DNA of 64,000 bases from Zopfochytrium polystomum (Eukaryota > Chytridiomycota > Chytridiomycetes > Chytridiales > Chytridiaceae): contig JAIVFJ010000028.1 of the NCBI GenBank assembly GCA_025765615.1, positions 310,001 to 374,000 on the forward strand, read 5' to 3'. Positions 19,485 through 48,717 of this stretch are shown here, in pieces. Made by a program: the position numbers and the translations under genes. The notes beneath the pieces are model-generated. The model had not been told where the DNA came from and did not search any database. It saw only the letters and a program-made list of their open reading frames with translations. The number at the start of each line of letters is the position of its first letter. Within the stretch, counting starts at the first letter, position 1.

Positions 19485-20613
19485 CATTGTTCCAGCCCTT
19501 AAGGGGCCGGCGGGAAGAGAAAGAGCCATTTCTTTCTTGTCACTGCCGGAGCATGCTTGTACCCTTGCGTTTCCTTGCAGTCTCAGAAGTGCTCCTGCCG
19601 CAACTTGCACAACCCAATCGCTACCCCCCGCGACTTTGACTTGCGCAATCGGGGGCAGGGGTTTCGGAGGGGCGTAATGAAAGCCAAAGTATCGATACAG
19701 GAAACTGTATCCTTCGAGTCGGACTTTTTCGTACCTACCCCCCCCCCCCCCCACACACACACACACATACAGCGATGAGATAAAAGGGCGACCTCACATT
19801 TTTTTGTTTTCTCCGTCAGCGCTCATGAGGGACATAATTGTTTTATAGATCCAAGCCAAAAAAAAAAAAAAAAAAAAAAGCAGGAACAGGAACTTGAAGG
19901 TTGCGGAGGGCGGGCCGGACAGGGACACACGAAAAAAAAAAAGGATAAAAAGAAAAAAAACAAGAAACAATCAACGAAGAAGAAGACTCGATGAAGTGCC
20001 AAAGGGGGGTGAAAGAGTGGGCATGGATTTTCGACTGCGACTGGAGAGAGAGGGAGGAGCGACGGCGTACGGCAATTACACAGAGAGGCCAAAAAGGAAG
20101 GAAAATTCAAGAAATGGGAGAGAAAAAGAAATGAAAAAAAAAGAGAAGAGGGGATTGATAGACAAGACCGGAAGGAGGAACATGGGGGGAAACAGGAAAG
20201 GCAAACATAGCGGACTAGGCGCGGTGTTTCTTATCCGACGGTGCGCATGCCGCCTGGGCTTTGGTTGGGGGAAATGGGTCGGCAATGTGTTGGGTAGCGG
20301 TCTATCGGGATTTGTCGTGGCGATTAAAGCGGTGGTGGGTGGGGTGGTTGGGGGTGGAGGAAAGAGAGAAGGGGAAGTAAATCGAAATAGCAAGCGGCTG
20401 ATTACCGTTTGAGGTAGGTAGCGTCGGGGGACGCGGGGGGCCGCGATTGGAGCAGGCCAAAGTTGATGGTGTGGGGCGGAGATTATTAGAGGTTTTTTTG
20501 GAATGAGAACGAGGGGACACCGGGCCGAGGAAGAACGTGGTGGGGAGATAATTTGCGGGGAGGGTGTTTCTGCTATTCGTCGTCTTCTCTCTCACGGAAC
20601 AGGAAAATAGAAA
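19281..20613. repeat. Convergent intergenic region with long homopolymers
   Basis: Includes a G run at 19290-19303, a 32-base T run (19453-19484), a C13 plus (CA)n tract at 19739-19769, and A runs near 19858-19879. It separates the convergent XRCC4-like and Bem3-like genes. A 172-codon Lys/Arg/Gly frame at 19894-20412 is low-complexity and not called as a gene. Confidence 0.6.
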
Positions 20614-34433: not shown

Positions 34434-35438
34434 CCTGTGAGGATGACAGGCTGTTGAGCCTGCAACCTCAAATAAAAAGAGTATTCCCTGCTTTTTTGAC
34501 TGATAACTTGTGAGGATTATCAATTTGACTCGACCAAACAACGTTGCACAAAAGTGACATAACGACCCCCGTTTCTTATTATTTTCATGGGTTATTATTG
34601 TCCCTGCAAGCCAAACCACTGAGATTTGGACTGTCTCTTGGCCGCGGCCATGTATGTTATTCATGTTATTATTACGCACTAAGTCACAGGCCAAATGGCT
34701 CAGGCTGCTCCGCACTACTGGCAAGAGGCCCTCTAGCTCAGTGGTGTGGAGTGCTCCCTTTGATGGGAGATGTGCAAAGTTTGAGATATGCTGGCAGTCA
34801 CTGAGTGAATGATGCAGAAATGCTAAATTCTGCACAATGACTAAGCCTTGCCCTCCTCACTTTTGGAAATGATTAGGATGATCTGCTACAGTGGGTAGAA
34901 GTACAGAGCCCAGGTGTACACAGAGCTAACACAGAGCTGCTGCATAAGCTACCATAATGAAAGGCCTCGTGAAAGGCTATGAGATCATAGGGTTTTTTCT
35001 CCTTTCTTCATTAATGATTTTTACTTATTTTTTCAATTAGTAGTTTATCCTGTTTTTCCTGTTCTTACTGTTTGATCTTTTATTTATTTGTTTGTTTGCT
35101 GCCTCTGTGTGCCTCTCTTTCTTTTGTGGCTGTGAGTGACTGTCTTCCTCTTTGCACCAATCAGCTCTCCCCAGCTCCTCCACCCTTCTTGGCAGCTGAA
35201 TACCAAGAAATGCCCCATGATTTTCTGAGCTGTCTTCCTTGTTTGATGGCTCAGCCCCATTGTTTGGCGACTCACTCCTCCTCTCTCTTCTTTGTTGTTT
35301 TATTTATTGTTTTGTACTTTTGTATGTGTTTTCCCTTCTTTTTCCCTCCTTCTTCCTTCACCCTGCTGATTCCAACCCTTTCCTATTTAAGCAGCCCACC
35401 CCCATTCTTGTTGCCTCTTAGAACCTGTACCTGAAGTC
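34434..35438 (+). repeat. ~1 kb dispersed repeat with tRNA-like boxes, copy A
   Basis: Begins CCTGTGAGGATGACAGG and ends GAACCTGTACCTGAAGT. It matches 47712-48717 along its whole length, and the reverse complement of about 37600-38420 over its first half. A tRNA-like A box (TAGCTCAGTGGTGTGG) starts at 34734 and a weak B box (GTTTGAGAT) lies at 34779. This points to a tRNA-derived SINE or a composite element; the boxes sit about 300 bp inside the left end, unusual for a SINE. Confidence 0.75.
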
Positions 35439-36769: not shown

Positions 36770-36798
36770 TGTTATGAATCACCCTCTGGAAACCTCTG

Positions 36799-36896
36799 GA
36801 ACCTTCTAGAACATTCCTTCATGGAACCTTCTGGAACCTTCTGGAACCTTCTAGAACATTCCTTCATGGAACCTTGTGGAACCTTCTGGAACCTTC
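36799..36896 (+). promoter_or_regulatory. Heat-shock element arrays in LTR
   Basis: Three blocks of alternating GAA and TTC at exact 5-nt spacing. 36799-36816 reads GAAccTTCtaGAAcaTTC (four units). 36824-36861 has eight units without mismatch. 36869-36896 has six units, one altered (TTG). Heat-shock factor binds three or more alternating nGAAn units; these arrays exceed that. The minus-strand copy at 37059-37411 carries the same arrays. Confidence 0.8.
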
Positions 36897-37006
36897 TTTG
36901 CTTTCCTGACTTGTCTTGTTGTCATTGGTATCATTGGTATCATTGTATTACTAATTGCTCTTTCTGGAACTTTCTTGGAGTCTTGACAAGGAACACTCTC
37001 AAAAGG

Positions 37007-37013
37007 TATAAAA
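37007..37013 (+). promoter_or_regulatory. LTR TATA box
   Basis: TATAAAA in the context AAAGGTATAAAAGGGGG, 111 bp downstream of the last heat-shock unit and upstream of the presumed LTR transcript start. The motif is conserved in the two other LTR copies (minus strand). Confidence 0.7.
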
Positions 37014-37058
37014 GGGGGATGGGGGACCTGTCCCATCCCTCAAGTGAATTATTGTTTC

Positions 37059-37411
37059 TGTCAGGAACAGGGCAGGACAGGACAAGGCAGACAAGGAACT
37101 GAGAGGAGTGATGATTGTATTGGAAACAATAATTCACTTGAGGGATGGGACAGGTCCCCCATCCCCCTTTTATACTTTTTGAGAGTGTTCCTTGTCAAGA
37201 CCCCAAGAAAGTTCCAGAAAGAGCAATTAGTAATACAATGATACCAATGATACCAATGACAACAAGACAAGTCAGGAAAGCAAAGAAGGTTCCAGAAGGT
37301 TCCACAAGGTTCCATGAAGGAATGTTCTAGAAGGTTCCAGAAGGTTCCAGAAGGTTCCATGAAGGAATGTTCTAGAAGGTTCCAGAGGTTTCCAGAGGGT
37401 GATTCATAACA
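37059..37411 (-). mobile_element. Solo LTR inserted into the same LTR family, opposite orientation
   Basis: 353 bp, TG...CA ends read on the minus strand, apparently identical to the host LTR over the regions compared. It is flanked by the 5-bp duplication GTTTC (37054-37058 and 37412-37416). The host sequence resumes exactly after the duplication. Confidence 0.88.
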
Positions 37412-37599
37412 GTTTCCAATACAATCATCACTCCTCTCAGTTCCTTGTCTGCCTTGCCCTGTCCTGCCATGTTCCTGACAGATGACTTGTTCTTTCCATA
37501 TATCCACTTGACTATGGGAGGGGCCTTCATAGATGTACAGGATCTCATAAAGTGCTGCTTTTGGCTCTTTTAGTTTCGATTAGAGGTCTTTGTCGCCCT

Positions 37600-38420
37600 G
37601 GCCCCCCTGAGCATGTGTCCAGTTCGGACTCTGTACTTCTACGTACTGAAGCACATCATCCTAATCCATTTCCAAAATGGAGGAGGGCAAGGCTCAGTCG
37701 TTCTGCAGAATTTAGCATATCTGCTTCATTCACTCAGTGAATGCCAGCATGTCTTGAACTTAGCCCCTCTCCCATACGCCACCGAGCTAGGGGGCCTCTT
37801 GCCAGTAGTGCGAAGCAGCCTGACCCCTTTGGCCTGCAACTTAGTGCATAATAATAACATGAATAATATACATGGCGGCAGCTAAGAAACAGTCCAAATC
37901 TCAGTGGTTTGGCTTGCAGGGACAATAATAACCCATGAAAATAATAAGAAGTGGGTCCAGCTGTGTTACGTCACTTTTGTGAAGCGTTGTTTGGTTAAGT
38001 CAAATTGATAATCCTCGCTGTCAGGAACAGAGCAGGACAGGACAAGGCAGACAAGGAACTGAGAGGAGCGATGATTGTATTGGAAACAATAATTCACTTG
38101 AGGGATGGGAGAGGTCCCCCATCCCCTTTTATACCTTTTGAGAGTCTTCCTTGTCAAGACTCAAAGAAAGTTCCAGAAAGAGCAATTAGTAATACAATGA
38201 TACCAATGATACCAATGACAACAAGACAAGTCAGGAAAGCAAAGAAGGTTCCAGAAGGTTCCACAAGGTTCCATGAAGGAATGTTCTAGAAGGTCCCAGA
38301 GGTTTCCAGAGGGTGATTCATAACACTCGCAAGTTATAAGTTAAAAAAAGCGGGGTATAATCTTTTATTTGAGGTTGCAGGCTCAACAGCCTTTTGTTCT
38401 TACAAATAATCTTGTACAAA
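37600..38420 (-). repeat. ~1 kb dispersed repeat, copy B (interrupted)
   Basis: Reverse-strand match to the first half of copy A, including the tRNA-like segment (rc near 37700-37800) and the AACCTCAAATAAAA string (rc near 38360-38375). It is interrupted by the solo LTR at 38019-38325. The far end near 37482-37600 is diverged and its boundary is approximate. Confidence 0.7.
38019..38325 (-). mobile_element. Solo LTR (307 bp) inside repeat copy B
   Basis: Same family as the 353-bp LTRs but 46 bp shorter, lacking the eight-unit heat-shock block and with one GAA changed to GGA in the first block. It is flanked by the 5-bp duplication CTCGC (38014-38018 and 38326-38330). The uninterrupted site in copies A and C holds the matching pentamer once, confirming insertion. 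Confidence 0.9.
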
Positions 38421-47711: not shown

Positions 47712-48717
47712 CCTGTGAGGACGACAGGCTGTCGAGCCTGTGACCTCAAATAAATTAAGTGTATACCCACTTTTTAACTGGTAATTGTGAGGATTACCAC
47801 CCCATCTTGACCCGCGTTTTGCTGGCACAACGTGACAAGGCTTGGATTCCTACTCTCTTATTATTTATTGGGTTTCCATACAGCCTCTGACTGGCTCCGT
47901 ATGTCTGCCTCTGAGCTCTACTATTATTATTTATTATTGACGATGTTGCAGACAGAAAGACTCAGTCTTGATTCTAATTGCTGATACAAGGTTCCCTTGC
48001 TCAGTGGTTAGAGCGCTCCCTTCAATTGGGAAGGTGCCAAGTTCGAGACATGCTAATTGACAGACTGGGCAGAAATGCAAAGTCCTACTATGCCTGGCCA
48101 ATGGTCCCCCACTTTTGGAAATGACTTAGTACTGAAACACTTCTGTGGGAGAAGTGCTTAGCCCAGATGGACAGAGTTAACAAGATGATGGCAGAGCTAA
48201 CAAGCCCTACCACCTGCTACCATGATGTAATACCTCATAAAAGGGTATGAGATCACAGGGTTTTTCTTTAATCTTTTCATTGGTGATTTTTACTTATTTT
48301 TCCAATTAGTAATTTATCCTGTTTTTCCTGTTTTTCCTGTTTTCTCTTTTATTTATTCCTTGTTGTCTCTGTATGTGTCTTTTCTTTCTTGTGTGGCTGA
48401 GAGTGACTGTCTTCCTCTTTGCACCAACCAGCTTTGCACCAACCAGCTCTCTCCATCTCCTCCATCTTTCTTGGCAGCTGATGCCAAGAAATGCTCCATG
48501 ATTTTCTGAGCTGTCTTCCTTGTTTGATGGCTCAGCCCCATTGTTTGGTGACTCACTCCTCCTTTCTCTTCTTTGCTGTTTTATTTATTGTTTTGTTCTT
48601 TTGTATATGTTTTCCCCTCTTTTCCCTTCCTTCTTCCCTCACCCTGCTGATTCCAACCCTTTCCTATTTAAGCAGCTGCCCCCTATCTTGTTGACTGTGA
48701 GAACCTGTGCCTGAAGT
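47712..48717 (+). repeat. ~1 kb dispersed repeat, copy C
   Basis: 1,006 bp, co-linear with copy A (1,005 bp). The tRNA-like part is best preserved here: A box TTGCTCAGTGGTTAGAGCG from 47997, a D-arm GCTC/GAGC pairing, an anticodon-like stem-loop CTCCCTTCAATTGGGA, and B box GTTCGAGAC at 48041-48049. It ends CCTGAAGT, exactly where the next element begins. Confidence 0.8.

Follow-up and report, generated by a model that had tools for sequence, protein, structure and literature searches.

The activation of an LTR retrotransposon by heat through the heat-shock factor (HSF) of its host has been worked out in plants for ONSEN of Arabidopsis, whose LTR promoter carries an HSF-type site (nTTCnnGAAn) and uses the heat response of the host (PMC3907296). 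The reference genome contains eight copies of this element; its induction by heat and its binding by HSFA2 were both measured, and mutants of HSF were tested (PMC3907296). Among fungi, two Cryptococcus elements carry putative heat-shock elements (HSEs) in their LTRs (two in TCN3 and one in TCN12) and mobilisation at 37 C was measured (PMC12810828); the same source calls fungal activation via the host heat-shock machinery undescribed. The LTR retrotransposon MAGGY of Magnaporthe was reported to be activated by heat shock, among other stresses (PMC3978060, citing Ikeda et al. 2001). Many HSEs have also been spread by the Helitrons of Caenorhabditis, with 953 HSE-containing copies and more than 10,000 HSEs, partly overlapping, in C. 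elegans, and HSF-1 binding and effects on genes were reported (PMC6927752). Finally, the chromoviruses of the Tf1/sushi group possess an integrase with a chromodomain, and the 5' end of their mRNA self-primes on a site located after the 5' LTR (PMC10085805).

We analyzed a stretch of 64,000 nucleotides (hereafter, the window) from the chytrid Zopfochytrium polystomum (Chytridiomycota), which contains three LTRs belonging to a Ty3/gypsy chromovirus that is present in many copies in this species and was recently mobile. The family shares with ONSEN the presence of HSF-type sites in the LTR promoter, but it has 2,223 LTR starts (a count that may be inflated, see below) and longer arrays, and it is known from sequence alone. 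The comparison with ONSEN that had been drawn in a previous sequence-only reading of the locus is fair in functional terms only, the two elements belonging to different classes and ONSEN being of the Copia type. TCN3 and TCN12 are likewise fungal LTR retrotransposons with putative HSEs, but their description in PMC12810828, as far as it covers these LTRs, presents no long arrays. For MAGGY, the main text of PMC3978060 names no HSE (the string "hse" has 0 occurrences). The Helitrons resemble the chytrid family in spreading many HSEs but are DNA transposons rather than LTR elements. We found no description of this family in the titles and abstract starts of the open-licence literature on HSEs and LTR retrotransposons (chytrids, fungi) or on Zopfochytrium.

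The segment 36770–37480 of the window had been read as one LTR promoter. It does include an HSE-bearing LTR of 353 bp, but it is composed of two nested LTRs rather than a single one. The plus-strand copy is split into a first part (36770–37058; LTR bases 1–289; 99.3% identity to the 353-bp LTR over 289 bases) and a second part (37412–37480; LTR bases 285–353, with GTTTC repeated; 97.1% identity over 69 bases) by a complete 353-bp LTR on the minus strand (37059–37411), which ends TGTT...GACA. The nested LTR is flanked by a 5-bp target duplication (GTTTC, at 37054–37058 and 37412–37416). On the outer sides of the plus-strand LTR, the sequences (CGTAG and GATGA) do not match each other as a duplication would. 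The third LTR (38019–38325; minus strand) is 307 bp long, has the duplication CTCGC on both sides and is followed, about 1 kb beyond its end, by an open frame of 746 codons that it precedes.

Perfect runs of alternating GAA and TTC units begin at bases 30 (four units), 55 (eight), 110 (four) and 193 (three) of the 353-bp LTR, and all of them lie upstream of a TATAAAA located at LTR base 238. HSEs in this position are expected of heat-activated LTR retrotransposons. On the plus-strand LTR, these runs occupy positions 36799–36816, 36824–36861, 36879–36896 and 36962–36974, and TATAAAA is found at 37007–37013. On the nested minus-strand LTR, TATAAAA is located at 37168–37174, the TATA-proximal three-unit run at 37207–37219, and the runs of four, eight and four units at 37285–37302, 37320–37357 and 37365–37382, respectively. 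The third LTR has minus-strand runs of three (38166–38178), four (38244–38261) and three units (38279–38291), and it indeed lacks the eight-unit block, as the sequence-only reading had stated. This reading had also counted blocks of four, eight and six units in the 353-bp LTR: the first two are borne out, but the third consists of four perfect units and reaches six only if one TTG is counted. The TATA-proximal run TTCTGGAACTTTC, which begins 45 bp upstream of TATAAAA, was missing from its list.

A test of the arrays against shuffled LTR sequence had been proposed. When the LTR was shuffled 20,000 times by dinucleotides, 19,760 of the resulting sequences contained no run of three or more units, 233 reached three and seven reached four. 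The arrays thus far exceed chance (longest run of eight units against a shuffle maximum of four), but they consist of a short unit repeated in tandem, so that the exact spacing from one unit to the next does not represent independent evidence. When the LTR part downstream of the array was shuffled, three units were reached in 53 of 20,000 cases; the proximal HSE found there corresponds to an array unit with one base changed and may therefore be a displaced copy. The rest of the window, beyond these three LTRs, contains a single three-unit run (at 20101). In a sample of 40 LTR pieces, all presented a run of at least three units (the runs of one of them, L064, come from a second, nested copy) and the proximal site was intact in 34.

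We searched the assembly (80,164,350 bases in 761 contigs) for LTR starts with at most one mismatch. This yielded 2,223 matches (1,101 and 1,122 by strand), a number that may be inflated since near-identical gene neighbourhoods on different contigs (e.g., 99.3% and 99.9% over about 1 kb) indicate that both haplotypes may be present in parts of the assembly; the reversed control yielded 0. The search for the 353-bp LTR and for full-length elements, which had been suggested from the sequence, confirmed that these LTRs belong to a genuine retrotransposon family that includes full-length elements. One of these (L008) is 5,305 bp long and has a 5-bp duplication; its two LTRs, each of 353 bp, are identical, and its open frames comprise 321 and 1,255 codons. 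Pfam profile matches on pieces of this element follow the order Retrotrans_gag, aspartyl protease, RVT_1, RT_RNaseH, and Integrase_H2C2 with rve; a Tf2-1-type SH3 domain is present as well, and the C-terminus of the integrase carries a chromodomain (PF00385; E 8.9e-17). The element is a Ty3-type chromovirus. In Copia elements the integrase is encoded before the reverse transcriptase in pol; this order is not found in L008, where the reverse transcriptase precedes the integrase.

A long open pol frame was present in one of the three element copies measured (L008, but not L007 or L019). The LTRs have TG...CA ends, and all five paired-LTR copies examined present a 5-bp target duplication; the two LTRs are identical in four of these copies and differ by a single mismatch in the other. 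Scanning viral contigs with the reverse transcriptase piece revealed no relatives with DNA context outside this genome, and the relatives of gag comprise 23 proteins (best match of 67% identity over 79%). Shorter elements with LTRs of the family were also observed (L011, L021 and L026; contigs C311, C11 and C27, respectively), in which the part encoding reverse transcriptase is missing and the end with the chromodomain is retained. The 321-codon gag frame is kept in L011 and L021 and is shortened in the second element of L026, and one deletion junction is common to the translated frames of all three, as if these non-autonomous forms descended from each other. Elsewhere, five LTR starts occur at intervals of 3,171 bp (C6:359820-372504) and three at intervals of 3,602 bp (C18:60775-67979), which suggests head-to-tail elements sharing LTRs.

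The 5' LTR of L008 is followed by two nucleotides and then by ATAATTCACTT, which is complementary to AAGTGAATTAT at LTR bases 273–283 (37042–37052 on the plus strand of the window). Ordinary tRNA priming was considered and rejected: because of the terminal CCA of tRNAs, a tRNA primer site begins with TGG, which is not the case for the 40 bases that follow the 5' LTR; the 11-nt self-match was found instead. The match begins 35 bp downstream of the TATA start, and matches of at least 11 nt were obtained in 5 of 10,000 shuffled LTRs. The predicted folds of the 5' RNA pair the 11-nt match at the three lengths analyzed (z = −2.05, −1.63 and −2.03), and an equally good fold was obtained for 8, 16 and 9 of 200 shuffles, respectively. 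From these features we infer a transcription start about 35 bp downstream of TATA and a self-priming mechanism, with AAGTGAATTAT as the predicted 5' end of the transcript and as self-primer; a start at this position would place all the HSE runs in U3. The self-priming match of Tf1 is also 11 nt long. The chytrid element resembles Tf1 in its chromodomain and in this Tf1-like match, and has an SH3 domain of the Tf2-1 type. We know of no HSE arrays in Tf1.

We then analyzed the variation of the arrays among copies. The LTR sizes of 263, 308, 353 and 398 bp correspond to whole steps of a 45-bp unit: the array is a 10/45-bp tandem repeat, each 45-bp block contains eight HSE units and one non-unit, and LTRs carry 0, 1, 2 or 3 blocks. 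The variation in unit number between copies that the sequence-only reading had noticed is therefore real and occurs in 45-bp steps. The distance from the LTR start to a landmark located after the array was determined for 40 copies sampled at approximately regular intervals among the first 100 LTR places (contigs C1–C6; hereafter, the even-step sample). It was 172 bp in two copies, 127 bp in nine, 81–83 bp in 25, 37 bp in two and 72 bp in one, the latter fitting no class, and the nested copy L064 gave no length. Genome-wide, 845 one-unit and 764 two-unit copies were found within three mismatches. Among the matches listed, we identified by eye at least 14 same-strand pairs of two-unit places exactly 4,952 bp apart, which is the spacing of L008, and at least seven same-strand pairs of one-unit places 4,907 or 4,908 bp apart. 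These spacings suggest that both classes have members of full-length size, as judged for the one-unit class by spacing.

The possibility that the two-unit (353-bp) class is younger than the 308-bp class was rejected. Our first comparison gave a median divergence of 0 for the 353-bp class and 1.3% for the 308-bp class, but many of its loci had been picked by their similarity to the LTRs of the window, and the apparent youth of the two-unit class results from this ascertainment. In the even-step sample, both medians were 1.3% (105 and 16 pairs). The divergence comparison comprised 72 copies in which the start, the end and a landmark could all be located, a requirement that 34 of the 40 even-step loci passed and six did not. 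With divergence equal in this sample, and 845 against 764 copies, the earlier proposal that promoter strength evolves by gain and loss of repeats finds no support in the form of array size tracking activity.

Perfect HSEs of six units were found at 2,188 positions of the assembly, overlapping ones being counted separately, and at 0 positions in the reversed control. Fifty distinct positions were examined: 49 were matched by eye to the listed LTRs and the 50th falls in L105, an old copy of the same LTR (87% identity) that keeps runs of six and four units. A broader interpretation is that this family carries nearly all the long perfect HSEs of the genome, tunes its promoter through the gain and loss of 45-bp blocks, each with eight HSF-binding units, takes advantage of the heat response and, with about two thousand dispersed arrays, draws off or redistributes the HSF of the host. 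Taken as a whole, we regard this interpretation as doubtful.

The heat-shock genes of the host provide a yardstick for these sites. HSF-domain matches in the host comprise 14 rows, four of which span nearly the whole domain. The product of L029 matches 18 sequences of solved domains, whose names include heat shock factor protein 1, 2 and 4, and the HSF frame of L027 (contig C19) matches the Z. polystomum protein DFJ73DRAFT_616553 at 168 of 169 residues. We extracted 26 upstream pieces, from 13 HSP70 places (58 rows), 12 HSP20 places (33 rows) and one of the two HSP90 genes, although owing to introns these pieces may not all reach the promoter. None of the 26 pieces contained a perfect run of three or more units, and no LTR sequence was detected in them at E 1e-3. 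Four-unit HSEs with at most one mismatch, a criterion that was set after the perfect-run test had failed on HSP70, were present in 10 of the 12 HSP20, 3 of the 13 HSP70 and 0 of the 1 HSP90 pieces; since the HSP20 pieces are paralogues, the first figure amounts to fewer than ten independent cases. The same site was found in 0 of 60 background pieces of the window and in 0 of 139 masked pieces, window included (sizes of 1,001 bp for the masked pieces, 1,101 bp for HSP20 and 1,201 bp for HSP90). A three-unit site with one mismatch was uninformative, because 12 of the 60 background pieces pass.

In the ten positive HSP20 pieces, the sites start 49–93 bp upstream of TATA, as compared with 45 bp for the proximal site of the LTR. 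The layout of U3 therefore appears to resemble that of the small-heat-shock promoters of the host, with a TATA and an HSE about 45 bp upstream, to which a distal perfect array of variable length is added. The 33 HSP20 rows, which include 12 nearly full domains, represent a large small-heat-shock set. Several of the HSP20 upstream pieces (L092–L103 and L087/L088) form pairs that are 97–99.9% identical on different contigs; these could be recent paralogues or unmerged haplotypes.

Considering the DNA features together, the best reading is an HSF-driven, heat-responsive LTR, to which we assign a probability of roughly 0.62; our confidence was lowered because perfect runs are absent from the host pieces and because the four-unit criterion was chosen after the fact. 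Under this reading, HSF trimers of the host would bind U3, cooperatively on the longer arrays, and bound HSF would raise transcription of the LTR when the cell experiences heat or proteotoxic stress. Transcription would begin about 35 bp downstream of TATA, and the resulting RNA would self-prime its reverse transcription through the 11-nt match next to the 5' LTR. The anatomy of this promoter is real and striking, and its activation by heat is likely.

Alternatively, the array could be a neutral tandem repeat of U3, in which a 10-bp unit was multiplied by slippage and matches GAA/TTC by chance, without any role in the heat response. Such an origin is consistent with a 10/45-bp repeat that changes mostly in whole 45-bp steps and with the lack of perfect three-unit runs in the 26 host pieces. 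It is also consistent with the substitution pattern, as we observed no clear extra conservation of the HSE cores relative to the rest of the LTR in these small and related samples. Indeed, differences affected 1 of 495 core cells against 33 of 4,125 other cells in 15 one-unit copies of equal length, and 2 of 342 against 11 of 1,776 in six two-unit copies of equal length. With L060 as the reference and gaps included, five older copies gave 2 of 165 against 53 of 1,375; four of 39 further places were compared with L105. However, a neutral repeat would not be expected to come with a separate three-unit site at a distance from TATA like that of the HSP20 sites, nor with the excess of four-unit sites in HSP20 pieces (10 of 12, against 0 of 139 in the background). 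Runs of three or more units in 40 of 40 sampled pieces, and of six and four units in a copy as diverged as L105, also argue against it, and we consider a neutral repeat unlikely.

It is also conceivable that HSF binds these LTRs but yields a constitutive or developmental output instead of a response to heat, with the arrays giving a high basal expression. No site in the 26 host pieces is as long or as perfect as the LTR arrays, which could hold HSF without stress, and several HSF-domain genes of the host have no assigned role; the likeness to HSP20 promoters nevertheless favours a stress response, and we regard a constitutive or developmental output as unlikely. Finally, the arrays might act mainly as a genome-wide sink for HSF or as scattered enhancers of neighbouring genes, a role that is compatible with a heat-responsive LTR. 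This role would fit the abundance of LTR starts (2,223) and of six-unit positions (2,188) across 80 Mb, as well as the location of the third LTR of the window about 1 kb from the 746-codon frame. Yet chromatin may silence most copies, and the identical LTRs in four of the five paired copies show recent transcription and copying of the element itself; as the main role of the arrays, we find this quite improbable.

If the HSF-driven, heat-responsive reading is true, heat stress may drive the spread of a chytrid retrotransposon. A single genome here offers a natural series of LTRs with zero to three eight-site blocks, and in four of the five paired copies measured the two LTRs are identical. This series makes it testable whether the number of HSEs sets the output of a retrotransposon, and how a genome copes with many strong HSF sites.

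Other features were observed in the window. A 180-bp inverted repeat (34568–34747 and 37776–37955; 91% complementary) flanks the nested LTR pair and is perhaps another mobile element. A second repeat (34990–35405 and 48259–48686), with stretches that are 85% and 93% alike, has its copies about 13.3 kb apart. The segment 56917–63750 contains an open frame of 2,277 codons without a Pfam match, and the best named matches of a RhoGAP frame in the window are from chytrids.
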